A DNA stretch of 64,000 nucleotides from Afipia sp. OHSU_II-C1 (GTDB taxonomy: Bacteria > Pseudomonadota > Alphaproteobacteria > Rhizobiales > Xanthobacteraceae): assembly GCF_000497575.1 (NCBI RefSeq), contig NZ_APJI01000008.1:1-64000 (forward strand), given 5' to 3'. Positions 12,192 to 62,725 of this stretch are shown in pieces. Position 1 is the first letter of the stretch. Each line of letters opens with the position of its first letter. The notes under the pieces are model-generated. The model saw only the letters and a program-made list of their open reading frames with translations, made no database searches and was not told the DNA's origin. A program made the position numbers and the translations under genes.

Positions 12192-12511
12192 TGGCCAGCC
12201 CTCAACCCGAAGCGCAGTGCCTCAGGTAGGCAGAATTTGCCGCGTGTATGGTTAATAAGGGGTTAAGAACCGTCCGGACCCATTTTCGCCATGAATGCCC
12301 TTCAACCGGACAAGCCATTGAAGTACCGGCAGAAGAACTATTTCGGGCCGCCGCGCTTTAATAGGGTACTCATCCGCCGGCGGCAGCATTTGCCGTCAAG
12401 AATTAACCGGTAGCGCGCACTTAGCACTCAATTCGTCCCAAACTGCTTGTTTCGCGGCCAGTGACCTGCGAATCTGGCATAGATGCGAGTGTTGTTTGAC
12501 GGGGACAGGAC
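12192..12511. other. divergent intergenic region, flgB / fliO
   Basis: This 320-bp gap separates divergent flgB and fliO. It holds the CtrA-type box at 12252-12266 and a lone TTAACC half site near 12402. I see no convincing sigma-54 promoter and no gene. Confidence 0.6.
12252..12266. promoter_or_regulatory. CtrA-type box upstream of flgB, divergent fliO
   Basis: TTAA at 12252-12255, seven bases, then TTAA at 12263-12266 match the Caulobacter CtrA consensus TTAA-N7-TTAA exactly. It lies 61 bp upstream of flgB and about 245 bp upstream of divergent fliO. Early flagellar operons are direct CtrA targets in Caulobacter (established). Use here is inferred. Confidence 0.65.
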
Positions 12512-14256: not shown

Positions 14257-14280
14257 GTCGGCTCGCGAGACTTTCCGTTT

Positions 14281-14356
14281 CGTCATTGCGAGGAGCGTCA
14301 GCAACGAAGCAATCCAACTTCCTTGTCGCTATGGATTCGCTTCGCTTGCAATGACG
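14281..14356. repeat. REP-like element (CGTCATTGC...GCAATGACG)
   Basis: CGTCATTGC (14281-14289) pairs with GCAATGACG (14348-14356), with inner GAAGCAATCCA/TGGATTCGCTTC arms. It lies between convergent fliP and the TPR gene. The core CGTCATTGCGAGGAGC recurs at 31507, so this is a dispersed family. The palindrome may also act as a bidirectional transcription barrier. Confidence 0.8.
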
Positions 14357-14373
14357 CCTGCAGCGTCCGCCGG

Positions 14374-17300
14374 TCAGCGGGTCGCCTTCACCCGCTTCAG
14401 GCTGCCCGTCGGATTCGGATCGGCCTTGATTTCAGGCGGCAGTTTGGCGCGCGCCATTGCATCGGGGAAGCGGACCTTCATCTCACGCAGGAAGCCATCG
14501 AGCGTGTCGATGGTCGCCGCCATCTTCGCAATCCGCGCGAAATCCGCGCTGTTCGCCGTCGCCGGCTTCGAGGCCACGTCGAACGCTGCGCGGTCGCCGC
14601 CGTCCATCTTCGGACTGTACTTCTCGCGGAAGCGGGCAAGGCCGATGGCATCTTCCGCCAGCGCGTATCCGATCACGGCGCGAATGACGTCGCTCTTCTC
14701 GGTCGGCGACAGCGGCTGAAAATCGCGCCAGCGATCACCGTAAAGCAGTTCGATCTGCTCGGCGGACTCCCGCCAGCGCCGCGACGCCCAGTAGATATCC
14801 GACCGGAGCCGGACCGCCTCGCGGCCGCCGACGTTCGAGATGATGTCGAGCGCCAGATCGTGACGACCGATGTCGGTCTGCGCCCGCGCCTCGAGCAACA
14901 GGCGCTGCTGGCGGATTTCTCCGGCCAGATCGGCGATCCGCGTGGTGCGCAGCGCCGCGATGGCGCGATCGGGCTTGCGGTTCATCAGATAGACCATCGC
15001 CAGCCGGGAGGCGACCTGTGCGCGGGCCGAGCCTTCAAGCCGGTGATCGATTTGGTATTGTAAAAGCTCGCTCGCCTGTTCGAGCAGATCGACGGCGACA
15101 AGACGATCCGCCAGACGCCGGATCATTTCGTCGCCGCGACGGCCGATCGGCGTGAGATCGCGGAACTCATAGAACATCGCAAGCGCTTCGACGGGCGGAA
15201 GATCCTCCCCCTTCGCGCCATTGTAGATCTGCTCGAACAATGCCGACGCCTCGTCCTGCATCTTTCGCGATGCTTCGGAGTTAGGTTGCAGCATGGTCGC
15301 GGTGCGTACGGCTGAGAAAGCTTCCGAATAACGCCCCTTGACCGCGTAGAGCCGGCTCAGCATCTCCAGTGTCTTCACCTCGATGGAGTCGCCCCGCCAT
15401 GTGACCGAGATGGCTTCAAGATCGCGAAGCGCATCGTCGTCGCTGATTTCGCCGCGCTTCTGGCGCAATGCAATCTGACGGACCTGCGCTTCGACCGCCG
15501 ACGGACGATCGGCCGACCCTGCGGCGGTCTGAAACGCCGCCAGTGCATCCTGATCGCGGCCCAGCGCTTCGGCGAGACGCCCGCGCAACAGCGCAATCGC
15601 CGCCGTCTGCTCGGGACCGACGCCGACGACGTCAAGATCGTTGCTCCGCACCGCCGCGCCCGGATAGTCCCTCACCTCAAGCGACGCGCGGAACGCGTCC
15701 GCGATCACAATGCGCTGGAGATCGAGCGGCAGCGCCGTGATGGCGAACTCGACGTTCTTGAATTTCTCGCGCGCTTCCACCCATTTTTCCTGCCGCGCCA
15801 GAGCAAGCGCCTTCCAGAGCTGGGAATCGATATTCGCGGCTACGGCGGGGTTGGCGAGATCCGCCAGCGCAAGCGCGGGATGCCCCGCCAGCGTGCTGGC
15901 GACAGCATGAACCGTCAGCGACGAGGCTTCTTCCTCGCCCGGCTTGATCTCCGAAAACGCCAGATCGAGAATGCCCTTCGCTTCGGGATACAGTCCACGT
16001 GCGAGATAGAACCGCGCAAGGTCGACATGGACAGGCAGGCGCGCCATTCCGGTCGCCAGCGCCGCCTTTGTCAGCAGCTTGTTGCGGGTCGGAATGAACT
16101 CGGCGTTCTGATAGTCGCGCCATTCGGTGACGTCGAAGACTGGACGAATGAGCGCGGCTGCGCGCTCCGGCGCCGCTGTCGCGGTGGACAGCGTCAAACC
16201 TCCGGGCCGCGTCAGGGTCAGCGTATCCGACGAGATGCCCGCGGTGATGTCATCCGACTTCTGCTGGATCACCACACCGTGGATCGATTCGAGCAGCGAG
16301 AACTCGACAAAGTCCTGGCGCTTCATGAACCCGCGCGACGGCGCGCCCGCCGTCATCACCAGCAGCAGATCGCCGGCATCGGGATCGTTCAGCCGATGAA
16401 GCTGTCCGGGCTTTGCGAGGCTGACACTGACGCTGGCGCGTCCGGGATCGGCCATGTTGCGTGTCGCGACCAGTGGCTGCGGCGGTGCGTGTCCCTTGTC
16501 GGCGAGAACGAGAGTCCACGCACGCTCATCCCCCGTCAGGGTTGCAAGCTGCGGACGATTTAGCCGTATCCGCAGCGCGCGGCCTTTCGGCAAATCAACA
16601 GGAACGGATTCTGCGACGATCCATCCGCCCTCACGGCGGACGGCGCTGGCATCGATCGCCTGATCGGTGTCGAACACTAGCCAGATCGAGTCCGAACGGC
16701 GAAACACCGCCGCGGCGGTAGGAGTGCTGAACGGAAACGTCAGGCGGAAATCGTCACTGGTGAGCCTCGCCTCCACCGTGACCTCCGCTGCGGGATTGGC
16801 CGCAGCCTTCTCGGGCGGCGAGGCTTTCACGGCAGGCGGCGATGGCACCAGCGGCGTCTTTACGGGCGCTTCGGCAACCGCTGGAGGAGTCGGCATAGCC
16901 GTCGCGGCGTCCGGCTTCGCAACGGCCGTCTCGGCCTTCGCATCGGTCGACGGCGCGGGCGCAGCCGTTTCCGCCGGCTTGACGTCCGGCGTTTGAATCT
17001 CCGGCAGCTTGACCTGGGCTGTCTTGACTTCAGCCGGCTTGGCGTCCGCCGTCATCTGACGTGCGATTTGTTCAGACGTCGGCGGCGCGATCTCGCTGGC
17101 CTTGTCGCCCGGGATCGGCTTCAACGGTGAATTGACGGTTTTTGGCTTCTGCGCCGGCTCGAAGGCAACGTCGACGACGTAATTCTTGTCCTCGCGGAAC
17201 GAGTGAATATCCGCCTCGCCGATCAGCGCGATCTCGACGCGTGCCCCGTCGCCCGCGATCTTCTGATTGATCGAGGTGATGTTCGCAGGCATCGCGATCT

Positions 17301-18030
17301 TCGCGTCCGCAAGATCGAACATCAGCGGCGCGGTGAACGACAACGTGAACTTCTCCGTCCCCAGCGAGGACGACACATTCACGCCGTCCGGCATTTCAAA
17401 GACAAAGCGGACGAAGGTCGGCTGAATCGATACCCGTACGCGAACCGGCGGACGCTTCGTCGCCTCATCCGCAATCTTCTGCATGCGCAAGGCGCGCTCG
17501 GCGGCCAGCGCACGCTCGGACAGCTCCTTCACAACCTCGGCCGGCAGTGCGGGCGGAAGCCCGGTCCATTTTTCCGGCAACAGATCGATGAACACGCGCT
17601 CTCCCGCGGTCATCACATTGACGCTGACTTTCTGCGTCAGCGCCATGCGGATCGCAGTGCCGTCGGGATCGCGGCGAACCGACCCGACATAGGCGGGAAC
17701 GGAATCCGCAAGCAGATCGATCGGAACGTCGACGGGCTTCTTGAACTGAATGACCAGGATAGCGCCCGCGACAATCACATCGGTCGGAACGTCTTCCTTG
17801 AACTTGAGAATCAGGCGGGCATAACCGGACTGCGCCGTCAGCACTGCCTCGCCTTTGACAGGATCAGCCGGAGCGGCTGTTGCGGCGACCGACAGGCAGG
17901 ACAGCAGGACGGCCAGCGCAAGCGCCGATGACCGCAGGCCACAGCAAAGCCGGCTCGCAAGAGAGCGGGCTTTCGGCCTGGTCCCTCGGGCTGGCTTAAT
18001 TGTGCCGGCGGTCCTGGACATTCCCAACAC
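14374..18030 (-). CDS. very large exported TPR protein in the fliL-fliM-motE operon
   Basis: The 1218-aa product has an N-terminal signal (hydrophobic ALALAVLLSCLSVAATAAPA, about 34-55). A beta-rich AMIN-like region follows (about 60-160, GYARLILKFKEDVPTDV). An Ala/Pro/Lys-rich linker spans about 310-430, and a second similar beta region covers about 430-520. A long helical TPR array runs from about 640 to 1150 (e.g. ALGRDQDALAAFQTAAGSAD). The context (3 bp after motE) suggests a periplasmic motor or stator scaffold. MotC of Sinorhizobium, the partner of MotE, is a possible functional counterpart, but it is much smaller and homology is not shown. Confidence 0.75.
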   Translation of the reverse strand: MLGMSRTAGTIKPARGTRPKARSLASRLCCGLRSSALALAVLLSCLSVAATAAPADPVKGEAVLTAQSGYARLILKFKEDVPTDVIVAGAILVIQFKKPVDVPIDLLADSVPAYVGSVRRDPDGTAIRMALTQKVSVNVMTAGERVFIDLLPEKWTGLPPALPAEVVKELSERALAAERALRMQKIADEATKRPPVRVRVSIQPTFVRFVFEMPDGVNVSSSLGTEKFTLSFTAPLMFDLADAKIAMPANITSINQKIAGDGARVEIALIGEADIHSFREDKNYVVDVAFEPAQKPKTVNSPLKPIPGDKASEIAPPTSEQIARQMTADAKPAEVKTAQVKLPEIQTPDVKPAETAAPAPSTDAKAETAVAKPDAATAMPTPPAVAEAPVKTPLVPSPPAVKASPPEKAAANPAAEVTVEARLTSDDFRLTFPFSTPTAAAVFRRSDSIWLVFDTDQAIDASAVRREGGWIVAESVPVDLPKGRALRIRLNRPQLATLTGDERAWTLVLADKGHAPPQPLVATRNMADPGRASVSVSLAKPGQLHRLNDPDAGDLLLVMTAGAPSRGFMKRQDFVEFSLLESIHGVVIQQKSDDITAGISSDTLTLTRPGGLTLSTATAAPERAAALIRPVFDVTEWRDYQNAEFIPTRNKLLTKAALATGMARLPVHVDLARFYLARGLYPEAKGILDLAFSEIKPGEEEASSLTVHAVASTLAGHPALALADLANPAVAANIDSQLWKALALARQEKWVEAREKFKNVEFAITALPLDLQRIVIADAFRASLEVRDYPGAAVRSNDLDVVGVGPEQTAAIALLRGRLAEALGRDQDALAAFQTAAGSADRPSAVEAQVRQIALRQKRGEISDDDALRDLEAISVTWRGDSIEVKTLEMLSRLYAVKGRYSEAFSAVRTATMLQPNSEASRKMQDEASALFEQIYNGAKGEDLPPVEALAMFYEFRDLTPIGRRGDEMIRRLADRLVAVDLLEQASELLQYQIDHRLEGSARAQVASRLAMVYLMNRKPDRAIAALRTTRIADLAGEIRQQRLLLEARAQTDIGRHDLALDIISNVGGREAVRLRSDIYWASRRWRESAEQIELLYGDRWRDFQPLSPTEKSDVIRAVIGYALAEDAIGLARFREKYSPKMDGGDRAAFDVASKPATANSADFARIAKMAATIDTLDGFLREMKVRFPDAMARAKLPPEIKADPNPTGSLKRVKATR

Positions 18031-18033
18031 GCC

Positions 18034-18795
18034 TCAGTTTCGGACGGGTGCTTGCGGCCTGCCTTCGATCTTGGGCAGGTCGTTCGCGGATGACGATCTA
18101 TCGCCGGTTGAGCGGCGCGCCAGTTCGACCGTCAATCGCTCGGCCGCCTCCGGCTGCATCTGTCCCATGATGTCGGACATCTTGCGCGGCGCGATCTGCG
18201 ACGCGATCTCGAACAGCACCGACAGTTCAAGCCGGTCGAACACCCTCGCCGCATCCTTCGGCTTCATGGCTTCGTACATCGTCACCAGGCCCTTGAAGCG
18301 CGCGGCCTCCTGTTCCTGCTTCTGCTGCCCGGCAACGGACACACGCGCCTCGGTCGCCTTCATCTCTTCGATCTTGCCCTCGATCCGCTTTTCAGCGGAC
18401 TTCATCAGGCTTTCCCGGATTTCGATTTCGCGTGCGCGGGCTTCGATCTCCTGCCGCCGCGCCTGAAGGCTTTCAAGAACCGCACGTTCGGATGCAGTCA
18501 CCGCGCGGTTGGGATCCGGATAGACCACCTTGTCGTCAGGAATTGGCGCGACCTCGGGAGCTGCCACGACCGGCTTGTCATCCTTGGCGGCGACCGAACC
18601 GGTGACATCCGACGAATCCAGCTTGCCCGGCGACGGGAAGTTGAAGGTCTCCTGCGCCCACGACTTCGGCTTCGGCGTATCGTTAAGGATATACCCGCCT
18701 TCAAGCAGAAGGCCCGATACCTTGAGCACGACCAGACAGCAGGTCGCGATCAAAAGTATCGGGATGATCCGGATATCGCGAAGAAGCGTTTTCAT
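18034..18795 (-). CDS. motE: MotE-family flagellar motor chaperone
   Basis: The 253-aa product has one N-terminal hydrophobic segment (about 10-32), a Pro/Asp linker, a coiled coil (about 100-165, rich in Arg/Glu/Lys) and a C-terminal MgtE-N-like domain (about 170-235). That domain carries MKPKDAARVFDRLELSVLF and IAPRKMSDIMGQMQPE. MotE in Sinorhizobium is a periplasmic chaperone for the motor protein MotC (established). The gene overlaps the upstream DUF6468-like gene by 4 bp and sits 3 bp before the giant TPR gene, indicating co-expression. Assignment to the family is secure; the exact partner here is inferred. Confidence 0.85.
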   Translation of the reverse strand: MKTLLRDIRIIPILLIATCCLVVLKVSGLLLEGGYILNDTPKPKSWAQETFNFPSPGKLDSSDVTGSVAAKDDKPVVAAPEVAPIPDDKVVYPDPNRAVTASERAVLESLQARRQEIEARAREIEIRESLMKSAEKRIEGKIEEMKATEARVSVAGQQKQEQEAARFKGLVTMYEAMKPKDAARVFDRLELSVLFEIASQIAPRKMSDIMGQMQPEAAERLTVELARRSTGDRSSSANDLPKIEGRPQAPVRN

Positions 18796-19259
18796 GCAGC
18801 GAGACCGGTGGCCCTTCGCCGTTCGGAGAATGCCTGGGCGGCGGCAAGCAGCGTCTTCGCATTCGACGACTTTTGCACCGGAGCAGCCGGCGTTTCGGCC
18901 TCCGCAGCCATCTCAACCTCGGGGACCGATGGCCGGGCCGCGAGCGCGATCTGGGTCAGACGGTTGAGGATCGCTTCGCCGGCCATCACCTGCTTGCTGA
19001 GTTTCGCTGACAGGGCCGTTCCGGCGGTGAGCTGAGCGCCGAGATTTTCGTCGCACTCCCGCACCGTCAGCTTCAGGCCACCGATCGCACGCTCGGCGAT
19101 TTCGGTCGCCGTGATGAGTTCGGCGATCATGGCGCGCATCGACTGCTCGTCGGCCCGCAGGCGCTTGAGCCGCCGGTTCAGGAGCATGCAGTAACCGATC
19201 GTGAGCAAAAGCAGCACCGCAACCAGGCTCTCGATCACAAGTCCGAATGAGTGACTCAT
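18792..19259 (-). CDS. DUF6468-like membrane protein of the fliM operon
   Basis: The 155-aa product has one N-terminal transmembrane helix (about 8-28). A helical region likely to form a coiled coil follows (about 29-105, with RRLKRLRADEQSMRAMIAEL), and the tail is Ala/Pro-rich. It resembles proteins annotated DUF6468 in alphaproteobacterial flagellar clusters (from memory). It overlaps fliM at its start and motE at its end by 4 bp each, so it is tightly coupled to motor genes. Its biochemical role is unknown; an inner-membrane motor accessory is the simplest inference. Confidence 0.7.
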   Translation of the reverse strand: MSHSFGLVIESLVAVLLLLTIGYCMLLNRRLKRLRADEQSMRAMIAELITATEIAERAIGGLKLTVRECDENLGAQLTAGTALSAKLSKQVMAGEAILNRLTQIALAARPSVPEVEMAAEAETPAAPVQKSSNAKTLLAAAQAFSERRRATGLAA

Positions 19260-20461
19260 TGTGCCTCCATCAGTTTGGTTTGCTCGTCTTGCTTCTCGAA
19301 CATCGCGTAAGTTGTGTGCGGCTTGCGCAGTGGCTTGGTGACACGAATGGCAACGCGATCGCCGACACGCCCCATCCGGCCCTCGCTGAGCGGCACGTCG
19401 CCGCAGCGGACAGTCACCAGTGCATCGGGCCGCACGTTGAGCGGCAGGGTATCGCCGACCTTCAGCATCATCAGTTGCTTGAGCGGCATATTGGCTTCAT
19501 AGAGCACGGCATCGACGGCGATTTCGGCCCGCGCGATCTCGGTGGCAAGATGGCCCTCCCAGATAGGATCACGGCCGAACTTTTCACCCATGAACATCTG
19601 CAACAGCACGTCGCGGATCGGTTCGATGGTGGCGTAGGGCAGCAGAAGCTCGATGTTGCCGCCGCGGTCTTCCATGTCGATCCGCAGGCGGACCAGAATG
19701 GCGGCGTTGGCGGGTCGGCTGATGGCGGCGAAGCGCGGATTGGTCTCCAGCCGGTCGATCGTGAAGGTCACGGGCGACAGCGGCCGGAAGGCCTGCTCGG
19801 CATCGGCGAGAACGACTTCAACGAGGCGCTTGACCAGATTGGTTTCGATGGTGGTATAGGGACGGCCTTCGATGCGCAGCGACGGCTGCCCGCGGCGGCC
19901 ACCGAGCAGCACGTCGATGATCGAATAGATCAGACTCGAATCGACCGTGAACAAGCCGAAGTTTTCCCACTCCTCGGCCTTGAACACCGAGAGCACGCAG
20001 GGCAGCGGGATCGAATTGAGATAGTCGCCGAAGCGCACCGAGGTGATGCGGTCCAGCGAGACTTCGACGTTGTCGGAGGTGAAATTGCGCAGGCTCGTCG
20101 TCATCAGCCGCACCAGGCGGTCGAACACGATTTCGAGCATCGGAAGGCGTTCGTACGACACCATCGCGGAATCGATGATGGCGCGAATGCCGGAATTCTC
20201 GTCGATATTGAGTTCGCCGTCGCTGAAACCGAGCAGGTTGTCGATTTCTTCCTGCGACAGGACGCGCTCGCCGCCGGCCTTGCCGATGTCGAGCGTGCGG
20301 CTGCCGTCGTCGACCATCGCGGCCCACTGCTCCGCCATGGTCTCGGTCAGCGTATTGGCTTCCGCCTCAGCCGCAGCCGCGGCCGGATCTTCGGAATCCA
20401 GCGCGCCTTCCCATTCGGCGGCTAGCGCATCCTGATCGACATCATTATCGCCCGGAGACAT
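19256..20461 (-). CDS. fliM: flagellar switch protein FliM
   Basis: The 401-aa product has an acidic N-terminus (CheY-binding region in this family) and the VLSQEEIDNLLGFSDGEL segment near 70-87. A middle CheC-like domain and a C-terminal SpoA domain (about 320-395) follow. FliM couples CheY-P binding to rotor switching. It is longer than enteric FliM because of an extended Ala/Glu-rich N-terminus. It is second in the fliL-fliM-DUF6468-motE-TPR run, 17 bp after fliL. Confidence 0.95.
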   Translation of the reverse strand: MSPGDNDVDQDALAAEWEGALDSEDPAAAAAEAEANTLTETMAEQWAAMVDDGSRTLDIGKAGGERVLSQEEIDNLLGFSDGELNIDENSGIRAIIDSAMVSYERLPMLEIVFDRLVRLMTTSLRNFTSDNVEVSLDRITSVRFGDYLNSIPLPCVLSVFKAEEWENFGLFTVDSSLIYSIIDVLLGGRRGQPSLRIEGRPYTTIETNLVKRLVEVVLADAEQAFRPLSPVTFTIDRLETNPRFAAISRPANAAILVRLRIDMEDRGGNIELLLPYATIEPIRDVLLQMFMGEKFGRDPIWEGHLATEIARAEIAVDAVLYEANMPLKQLMMLKVGDTLPLNVRPDALVTVRCGDVPLSEGRMGRVGDRVAIRVTKPLRKPHTTYAMFEKQDEQTKLMEAQ

Positions 20462-20478
20462 GTTTCAACTTCCGTCCG

Positions 20479-20967
20479 TCACTGAACGACGATTTCCTTG
20501 AACAGCACAGCGTTTACCTGACTGGGCGAGATCGCAGCGTTGACGCGGCGCGTCAGTTCTTCCTTCAGGCGGAACAACCCGATCGATCCGTTGAGGTCGG
20601 TTGGACGCAGTTCGCGCATGTAGGTCTGAAACAGGTCCATCACGCGCGGCATGGTCGGCTGGATCTGCGCCACCAGCGGCTGATCCTTGACCTCGAGCAC
20701 AACCTTGACCTTGAGATATTGAACCCGTTCGCCCGGCGCATTCGCCAGATTGACCAGCACCTCGGGCACGTCGAGGAACACCGGCGGCTTCGGGGGCGGA
20801 GCAGCCGCGTGCTCCTCCTTGCCGTGTCCGCGCATGAAGAAGAACCAGCCGCCGCCGGCCAGCAGAAGCACCAGCGCTGCGGCGCCGCCAATCATAATGA
20901 GTTTGCGCTTGCTCTTCGGAGCGGCGGCTTCGGCACCGCCCTCTTCGACCTGATCGTCGTCTGCCAT
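20479..20967 (-). CDS. fliL: flagellar basal-body associated protein FliL
   Basis: The 162-aa product has a short charged cytoplasmic N-terminus, one transmembrane helix (about 22-42, followed by FFMRGHGKEEH) and a periplasmic FliL domain. That domain contains LVNLANAPGERVQYLKVKVV and a C-terminal INAVLFKEIVVQ-like strand. FliL surrounds the stators and supports torque. It is first in the operon, and its upstream region is shared with the divergent flgF operon. Confidence 0.95.
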   Translation of the reverse strand: MADDDQVEEGGAEAAAPKSKRKLIMIGGAAALVLLLAGGGWFFFMRGHGKEEHAAAPPPKPPVFLDVPEVLVNLANAPGERVQYLKVKVVLEVKDQPLVAQIQPTMPRVMDLFQTYMRELRPTDLNGSIGLFRLKEELTRRVNAAISPSQVNAVLFKEIVVQ

Positions 20968-29212: not shown

Positions 29213-29304
29213 CGTGCCTATCTCGCAAGACAACGGGTCGGGACCACCAGCTCTGCTCTTACACCGGTCCGCGGAACCCCCATGCCCAAAGTGGCCATTT
29301 ATGG

Positions 29305-29320
29305 TTAACGGGAAGTAAAC
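29305..29320. promoter_or_regulatory. near-consensus CtrA box between fliX and flgI
   Basis: TTAA (29305-29308), seven bases, then TAAAC: one mismatch from TTAA-N7-TTAAC. It lies 93 bp upstream of the fliX start. fliX is a CtrA target in Caulobacter, so this placement is plausible though unproven. Confidence 0.45.
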
Positions 29321-29449: not shown

Positions 29450-29519
29450 TAGTTAACTGCGGACTAACCTCGTGGGGAGCATGGGGCTGGGCCGCAAAGA
29501 CCTCAGCGGGGAGCAGAGG

Positions 29520-31506: not shown

Positions 31507-31575
31507 CGTCATTGCGAGGAGCCATTCGCGCGTTCACGCGCGTCTTCGACGCGCTATGGCGACGAAGCAATCCAT
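31507..31575. repeat. REP-like element, second copy
   Basis: CGTCATTGCGAGGAGC (31507-31522) is identical to the first 16 bases of the element at 14281, and CGACGAAGCAATCCAT (31560-31575) matches its middle. The intervening sequence forms its own GCGCG-rich stem. It sits in the gap after the FlgN-like gene. Confidence 0.75.
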
Positions 31576-35450: not shown

Positions 35451-35490
35451 TCTTTGCGTTAATCTTTAGAAGGCACGATTTAAATTATGG

Positions 35491-35505
35491 TTAAGAGCGG
35501 ATTAA
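35491..35505. promoter_or_regulatory. CtrA-type box upstream of flagellin 1
   Basis: TTAA (35491-35494), GAGCGGA, TTAA (35502-35505): a perfect TTAA-N7-TTAA about 102 bp upstream of the flagellin 1 start. It could recruit CtrA to this flagellin, or be a chance match in an AT-rich leader. Confidence 0.55.
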
Positions 35506-35586
35506 ATTGTTCCCCTAACAAAAGGTAAAGACGCACCAGCGCCCTGCCGATCTGGCCGAATTCAGCGCGAAAATCGCGCAAAAAGA

Positions 35587-37631: not shown

Positions 37632-37939
37632 GTGAGGTACCTTTCTGGTGTGACTCAAAACGCAACGTGTACGAGCGTGCCGCCGATAGCTTCGATCAGC
37701 GAGCCGTCCGACATTGGGGCCAACAATCTAAAAAGGTATGAACCGGGCCCGTCGAAGTGTTCCGATCAAGGACCTGGACGCGCAGCGCAAAAAGCCGCGA
37801 TTTCGCTGATCCCACAAGGGCATCTCGCAATATCGGGCTTCCGCGAGTCGCGCCGGCGTTTACCTCGCGTTAACCATAAAGCGAAAGGATCGCGCCATCC
37901 GCCGGATCAATTTGGAACCGGCCCGCACGGAGAACCGCC
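37632..37939. other. divergent regulatory region, flagellin 2 / flbT copy 2
   Basis: This 308-bp gap contains the flagellin 2 leader and, nearer the second flbT, a near-consensus CtrA box. I found no GG-N10-GC element for flagellin 2. No gene is seen. Confidence 0.55.
37861..37876 (+). promoter_or_regulatory. near-consensus CtrA box before second flbT
   Basis: TTTA-CCTCGCG-TTAAC has one mismatch to TTAA-N7-TTAAC and lies 64 bp upstream of the second flbT start, with flagellin 2 divergent on the other side. Confidence 0.4.
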
Positions 37940-62326: not shown

Positions 62327-62725
62327 GACCCATCCGAAATTGCTGACGGCGCCGGATCGAATCCGGCCGGAAACACCGTCAGGCAATCACACCAATGGTT
62401 AACGAAATGTATCAGGTATTCGCCCCGATTTAGCCATGTTTTCGCCGCCTCGCCGCCTAGAAATACCAAAGTGCTTTTGAAAACTGTTGATTTCTGAAAG
62501 CGTTAACCGTGCCGGTGTTAACGATGATTAAAAATCTATTAACCCATCCCATTTCATTCGACCCACCGAGCCAATAGGATGTTTGCGGAAGTGCGGGACA
62601 ACCGGCAGGACAAATCGGCGACGTAACTTCGTTTCGTCTACCGGTATCGGGGAACATTCGACGGCGCACAGCCCTGGCTGCGGTGCCACTTGCGGATGCG
62701 TAAAAAATAAAGGCGTGCGGGACAC
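62327..62725. other. divergent AT-rich regulatory region
   Basis: This region of nearly 400 bp separates divergent HPt and coiled-coil protein genes. It is AT-rich for this genome around 62450-62545 and contains three TTAA elements including a perfect CtrA-type box. Short frames within it have no support. Confidence 0.6.
62528..62543. promoter_or_regulatory. CtrA-type box upstream of coiled-coil gene
   Basis: TTAA (62528-62531), AAATCTA, TTAAC (62539-62543): perfect match to TTAA-N7-TTAAC. An overlapping TTAA-N7-TAAA begins at 62518, and TTAACC lies near 62503. It is about 185 bp upstream of the gene at 62726 and 200 bp upstream of the divergent HPt gene. Confidence 0.6.

Follow-up and report, generated by a model that had tools for sequence, protein, structure and literature searches.

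An alphaproteobacterial fliL-fliM-motE operon in Afipia sp. OHSU_II-C1 with a probable pflI gene and an FssB/MotK-like exported protein

The window considered here, 64,000 nucleotides of Afipia sp. OHSU_II-C1 (contig NZ_APJI01000008.1, positions 1 to 64,000), contains a minus-strand run of five flagellar or putative flagellar genes, extending from 20967 down to 14374, that encode FliL, FliM, a DUF6468 protein, a MotE-like protein, and an exported tetratricopeptide repeat (TPR) protein of 1218 aa. The first gene, fliL (20479..20967, 162 aa; Pfam FliL, E 4.6e-19; NCBIfam NF009420, above cut-off), is separated by 17 bp from fliM (19256..20461, 401 aa; Pfam FliM, 8e-64; TIGR01397, above cut-off), which encodes the C-ring switch protein and is the sole PF02154 match in this genome. 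The DUF6468 gene (18792..19259, 155 aa; PF20072, 9.7e-23) overlaps both of its neighbors, fliM and the motE-like gene (18034..18795, 253 aa), by 4 bp, and the FssB/MotK-like scaffold gene (14374..18030) follows after a gap of 3 bp, a value that hinges on the choice of GTG as its start, one of two candidates, the other being an ATG at codon 4. Rechecking of coordinates and spacings bore out an initial annotation of this DNA in all five genes and in their orientation, overlaps, and gaps. Pfam and NCBIfam models name FliL, FliM, and the DUF6468 protein clearly and the MotE and TPR proteins weakly or generically. On the basis of the order of the genes, the relationships of their families, the AMIN-like repeats within the TPR protein, and co-occurrence, all of which were observed here, the run is very probably the form taken in Afipia by the alphaproteobacterial fliL-fliM-pflI-motE-fssB/motK operon, with the scaffold acting in the manner proposed below.

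Hydropathy places a membrane segment at the N terminus of the DUF6468 protein, followed by positive charge, and the C-terminal part is probably cytoplasmic. The gene is probably the orthologue of pflI, as it encodes a small membrane protein and occupies the position reported for PflI, which in Cereibacter lies between fliL2 and motE (PMC10954123; this and the other papers are cited from the portions of their text that were available). PflI is a pole-positioning protein (PMC3017070, PMC11236974, PMC7987155) and is also cited in PMC7064773. Among 14 control genomes, DUF6468 was matched in one, that of Caulobacter vibrioides, and the literature searched contains no mention of DUF6468 by name. PflI, which we take to be CC_2060, was reportedly found through a gene-neighbor screen. 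The MotE-like protein consists of a membrane segment (hydropathy 2.59 at residue 13), a charged stretch, and a conserved MgtE_N-like C-terminal part, as delineated in an alignment of its family (A3). The family of MotE, FlgY, and FlbB (COG3334) is characterized by a C-terminal ARM-like domain, MgtE_N. The MotE-like protein matches the model of the FlbB collar protein at 1.4e-4 (21.8 bits, below the 110-bit cut-off), and the two sequence matches of MotE to solved structures (E 0.21 and 0.61) have no meaning.

The TPR protein begins with a Sec-type export signal, recognized from hydropathy, charge, and sequence, in which a hydrophobic segment follows a net charge of +4 (residues ∼1-52, 17875..18030; all features of this protein are on the minus strand), the cleavage site being placed by eye. 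Its N-terminal half comprises three mutually homologous AMIN-like repeats, designated b1 (residues 61-168, 17527..17850), b2 (residues 191-297, 17140..17460), and b3 (residues 416-519, 16474..16785) and delimited with repeat profiles; the linker between b2 and b3 (residues 298-415, 16786..17139) is rich in Pro and Ala and poorly conserved in A1, the smaller (21 rows) of two alignments of the family, the larger, A2, having 40. Profile-profile comparison matched b1 with b2 at 1.6e-29, b2 with b3 at 3.1e-14, and b1 with b3 at 6.7e-13 (E-values per single comparison; reversed-profile controls, 0.02 to 0.12). A TPR solenoid region (residues ∼640-1190, 14461..16113) is indicated by a match to Pfam TPR_2 at 3e-9 and by TPR models in members of A2, its limits being taken from A1. 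The solenoid region carries two signatures, WRGDxxE (residues 878-884, 15379..15399), the same in all 21 rows of A1 and invariant or nearly so across those of A2, and FxxLTPxGxxGDxxxRxLAxR (residues 956-977, 15100..15165), which is conserved in both alignments and was the source of the peptide patterns used in the search for relatives. The best named matches are from Afipia birgiae and Afipia massiliensis (77%), a ranking from which the record of the window itself was possibly excluded. At E ≤ 0.01, TPR_2 matches 23 of the 40 members of A2, the Pfam AMIN-like model 14, and AMIN 7. Positions 74-249 of the family profile match PilQ in the PDB (E 0.0051), and the profile as a whole gives 51 matches to solved structures, mostly designed or generic TPRs, among which PflA is not named.

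The number of AMIN-like repeats ranges from 0 to 3 across the family. Among 64 TPR proteins, 38 have the set b1-b2-b3, 2 have b1-b1-b3, 17 have two repeats (13 b2-b3 and 4 b1-b3), 4 have b3 only, and 2 have none; the remaining protein gave four matches, one of them a 17-bit fragment beside b1. It should be noted that 40 sequences were used to build the repeat profiles, that many of them recur among the 64 and there match by construction, and that a repeat scored as absent may simply have diverged. The two repeat-free proteins are encoded in genomes of two separate families within the class; in one locus (L338) the TPR gene directly follows that of MotE, and in the other (L337) it lies 1.4 kb beyond, with two opposite-strand ORFs between them. 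We read the family as a fixed TPR module joined to a variable array that may bind the cell wall, the latter function being taken from papers on AMIN domains.

The distribution of the genes was examined in one draw of 241 alphaproteobacterial genomes searched with DUF6468, FliM, and the TPR profile A2. DUF6468 was positive in 120 genomes (at 1e-5) and FliM in 141. The TPR profile was positive in 144 at 1e-5, from which the 131 with matches at 1e-20 or better were used as the count and the 13 weaker ones set aside. The TPR family accompanies DUF6468 in 117 of its 120 genomes, and within the FliM-positive set both are present in 117 genomes, DUF6468 only in 2, the TPR profile only in 11, and neither in 11, so that the TPR profile occurs in 128 of the 141; because the genomes are related, Fisher values for this overlap overstate their independence. 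For gene order, 71 of the 120 DUF6468 loci were picked by hand, spread over families and mostly away from contig ends. The order FliL-FliM-DUF6468-MotE-TPR was found in 55; two others show it with an additional FliL, one has FliL-DUF6468-MotE-TPR, and 13 gave no TPR match on the stretch examined. The 58 TPR matches comprise 53 above 700 bits and 5 partial ones. In a set of 80 named loci, all five genes are in order in 67, and in the other 13 between one and four of the genes that precede the TPR gene were not found on the stretch examined. The full order in 67 of 80 loci, and the joint presence of the TPR family, DUF6468, and MotE in 58 of 71, indicate that the run is not a chance association.

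In 17 of the 67 complete loci the TPR frame starts at least 400 bp past the end of the MotE frame. In a separate listing of 17 loci, at least 4 (L177, L207, L212, and L214; by eye also L151) have MotB-like genes between those of MotE and the TPR protein. According to Pfam models, the products encoded in this interval in L177, L212, and L214 include CheZ, a protein with MotB_plug only, and a MotB that has both plug and OmpA domains and whose gene immediately precedes that of the TPR protein. The two adjacent MotB_plug proteins lie at 7002-8389 in L177, 10195-11630 in L212, and 335-1852 in L214, and the first of each pair has no OmpA match at 0.01. In four Bradyrhizobium loci (L084, L079, L096, and L139), stretches of ∼1 to 5 kb that contain ORFs separate motE from the TPR gene. 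Two loci, L339 and L340, have a split operon with the TPR gene remote from the DUF6468 gene; the two genes are at 1.27 and 2.59 Mb of one contig in genome G260 and on separate contigs in G343. Another locus, L211, was considered as a candidate for the Cereibacter type; FliL, DUF6468, and MotE are present, the large ORFs listed after MotE are unlike motA or motK, and the assignment was rejected.

In rhizobia the TPR-rich partner of MotE is MotC, and the relationship between the two types of protein was examined. A single MotB_plug match is present in the Afipia genome, adjacent to one of four MotA_ExbB matches, and no motC-like ORF adjoins these genes. A search of the genome with the MotC model gave nothing at 1e-10, and no MotC model (PRK12798 family) is among the NCBIfam matches of the TPR protein at E ≤ 1. 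A single sample of 150 genomes from the order, scored at E ≤ 1e-5 for the TPR family and E ≤ 1e-10 for MotC, contained 87 with the TPR protein, 30 with MotC, 4 with both, and 37 with neither. The MotC alignment was assembled from one MotC-like frame in each of eight motB regions, the eight being the positives in a MotB_plug search of 20 genomes taken from the 63 in the order that lack the TPR family. Frames from three of these (L252, L249, and L256) match NCBIfam MotC models at 3e-38 or better, below the curated cut-offs; 2 of the 30 MotC matches are above the model cut-off, and those of genomes G032 and G130 have a stop in the matched stretch. Some MotC-like proteins have very long low-complexity N-terminal regions (L256, 8263-10899; L253, 8085-10421; L255, 7332-10334), the frames being given from stop to stop, so that part of the start may be untranslated.

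The four genomes with both proteins (G032, G130, G108, and G135) each have two FliM proteins, one high-scoring and one low-scoring. In 21 other genomes, the four with the TPR protein only have one high-scoring FliM, the five with MotC only have one low-scoring FliM (two genomes) or none (three genomes), and the other 12 gave no FliM match. The high-scoring FliM gene of G032 is <6 kb from the TPR gene and the low-scoring one ∼16 kb from that of MotC. This pattern of sequence matches fits the presence of one scaffold type per flagellar system. A broader proposal, to which we give a little under an even chance, is that two interchangeable scaffolds, the AMIN-array TPR protein and a rhizobial-type MotC, may operate on one type of MotE ring, each with its own FliM lineage, and that the number of AMIN-like repeats (0 to 3) would tune the holding of the stators.

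The experimental work that bears on the function of the operon comes from relatives, from which the location, partners, and need for rotation of the Afipia TPR protein are extrapolated. Deletion of fssB (CC_2058) in Caulobacter leaves cells that make filaments and do not swim, like a motB mutant (Hershey 2021, PMC7885107). In Cereibacter, the operon fliL2-pflI-motE-motA2-motK encodes proteins of which MotK, MotE, and MotB2 interact in vitro; motK is needed for rotation and its product is periplasmic, and CC_2058 is regarded there as a distant MotK homologue, its mutant being said to be non-motile (Velez-Gonzalez 2024, PMC10954123). CC_2059/MotE has been proposed as an E-ring protein and CC_2058 as a PflA-like protein, PflA having an AMIN-like domain and 17 TPRs (PMC13023049, PMC11870540). 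The available parts of these reports thus already describe a trio that the initial annotation had presented as undescribed (MotK and MotE in PMC10954123, together with PflI between fliL2 and motE; FssB in PMC7885107; the E-ring in PMC13023049 and PMC11870540). What it suggested, a large scaffold for the stator that lies in the periplasm and works together with MotE, is in line with the experiments on MotK and FssB and would apply to the Afipia protein by analogy with them.

In the mechanism that we favor, the DUF6468 protein, as the probable PflI, would be a small membrane protein whose cytoplasmic domain ties it to the site of motor building, a role suggested by the match in position and by the function known from Caulobacter. 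MotE would be anchored in the inner membrane, as its sequence suggests, and would form the E-ring around the MS-ring, as proposed in the literature. The 1218-aa protein would be exported to the periplasm, consistent with its signal and with the known location of MotK; its row of AMIN-like repeats may grip the cell wall, and its TPR solenoid may join MotE to MotB stator units, a binding known for MotK only, with the result that the stators would be retained or activated. In this genome it would take the place of the rhizobial MotC and, by analogy with fssB and motK, would be needed for rotation.

Several observations weigh against this interpretation. The MotE-like protein matches MgtE_N (PF03448) at E 0.0043 and 18 bits, below the cut-off of 25.9 bits. 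The attribution of AMIN-like domains to the TPR protein, made in the earlier annotation, has support at the level of the family, but no Pfam AMIN model matches the Afipia protein at E ≤ 1, and when family members were scanned singly an AMIN-type match was obtained in 5 of 8, all below Pfam cut-offs. Binding to the wall through AMIN-like repeats cannot be general, since none were detected in the proteins of L337 and L338. The co-occurrence is also incomplete, as DUF6468 is found without the TPR family in 3 genomes and the reverse (at 1e-5) in 14; among seven of these 14 loci that were opened, a DUF6468 profile of our own matches in place in five (L337, L341, L342, L343, and L345; 1.9e-6 to 7.6e-25), L338 gives no match to it, and L346 lacks every one of the four other genes. 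No interaction of FliL2 was detected in Cereibacter, according to the portion of PMC10954123 available, and orthology to MotK, CC_2058, and PflI is argued from the position of the genes, the distribution of the families, and statements in the literature.

A different account of the relationship with MotC is that the two are not analogues but true homologues, representing one gene in which an AMIN array was lost or gained. Their reciprocal distribution, the common MotE partner family, the occurrence near MotE of TPR proteins without detected AMIN-like repeats (L338 and L337), and a statement of homology from structure in a review (PMC13023049) are in its favor. The TPR and MotC profiles also match at 5.5e-4 and 5.7e-5 (reversed controls, 0.25), but BamD, an unrelated periplasmic TPR protein, scores better on the same profile (1.3e-5 and 1.1e-6); the signal is thus generic, the profile match was discarded as support specific to homology, and the pattern of co-occurrence is no proof of shared ancestry. 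Common descent nevertheless stands as a serious possibility, falling just short of an even prospect. It is unlikely that MotE is merely a chaperone with the TPR protein as its client, as was proposed for Sinorhizobium MotC and carried over to this locus in the initial annotation. MotE is required for the stability of MotC in S. meliloti (PMC13023049), motE adjoins the TPR gene here, and recruitment of MotE to the motor seems reduced in Cereibacter without MotA2 and MotB2 (PMC10954123). However, the dependence in Cereibacter runs the other way, MotE being unstable without MotK and MotK stable without MotE (PMC10954123), and the review, in the portion available, treats MotE as a ring component present at the flagellum independently of MotK, MotA2, and MotB2 (PMC13023049). 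That the TPR gene is a mere neighbor with a role in organization of the cell wall or pole is very improbable, for, although the spacing from MotE is wide in the 17 loci noted above and other ORFs intervene in the four that were opened, only 3 of the 131 class genomes with the TPR family are without a FliM match, and the fssB mutant is paralyzed (PMC7885107).

Some non-coding features of the window may be recorded. The motif TTAA-N7-TTAAC, which we take to be the CtrA consensus, has 15 strand-wise matches as compared with 0.73 expected, many of them representing the two strands of one site, and they cluster at 12251-12267, 29304-29320, 29452-29468, 35479-35506, 37858-37874, and 62517-62543; none of the 15 is upstream of fliL. 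The gap at 14257-14373, between the TPR gene and the convergent fliP, has a folding energy of −43.2 kcal/mol (z −1.96), with 10 of 200 shuffles at least as stable, and contains a 19-bp motif of which a second copy, differing by 3 mismatches, is at 31507; a shared terminator or a repeat element is possible.

The preferred interpretation, an operon for an E-ring and its periplasmic scaffold, places the Afipia genes within a set that is coming to be seen as an ancient component of the flagellar motor. The system itself is already known, and the variation of the scaffold in repeat number, its distribution, and its infrequent coexistence with MotC add some new comparative detail. What is new is a profile that tracks the alphaproteobacterial scaffold through most of the flagellated genomes sampled, despite the reported lack of sequence conservation of PflA-type proteins across phyla (PMC13023049, PMC11870540). 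The four genomes that have both scaffold types and two FliM proteins constitute a natural experiment in which the role of the wall-binding domains could be tested by gene removal.

Several known systems are close to the Afipia operon. In that of Caulobacter crescentus, FssB/CC_2058 is likewise an exported TPR protein encoded after MotE, is reported to have an AMIN-like N terminus, and is needed for rotation; it is depicted with one AMIN-like domain (residues 36-132), as opposed to three repeats in the Afipia protein, and the likeness is by description (PMC10954123). The fla2 system of Cereibacter sphaeroides, with MotK, MotE, and MotB2, shares the fliL-pflI-motE-...-motK operon and a protein, periplasmic in Cereibacter and probably so in Afipia, with AMIN-like and TPR parts, but MotK is 652 aa long with a single AMIN-like domain, motA2 separates motE from motK, and the operon as listed in the available text does not include fliM. 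In Sinorhizobium meliloti, MotE is again accompanied by a TPR-rich periplasmic protein needed for rotation, MotC (PMC10954123, PMC13023049); AMIN is described for MotK and not for MotC in the available part of the review (PMC13023049), and motC follows motB (PMC10954123). The FlgY-PflA pair of the Campylobacterota combines an E-ring protein with an AMIN-TPR spoke protein (PMC11870540, PMC13023049), PflA having a single AMIN-like domain where the Afipia protein has three repeats.

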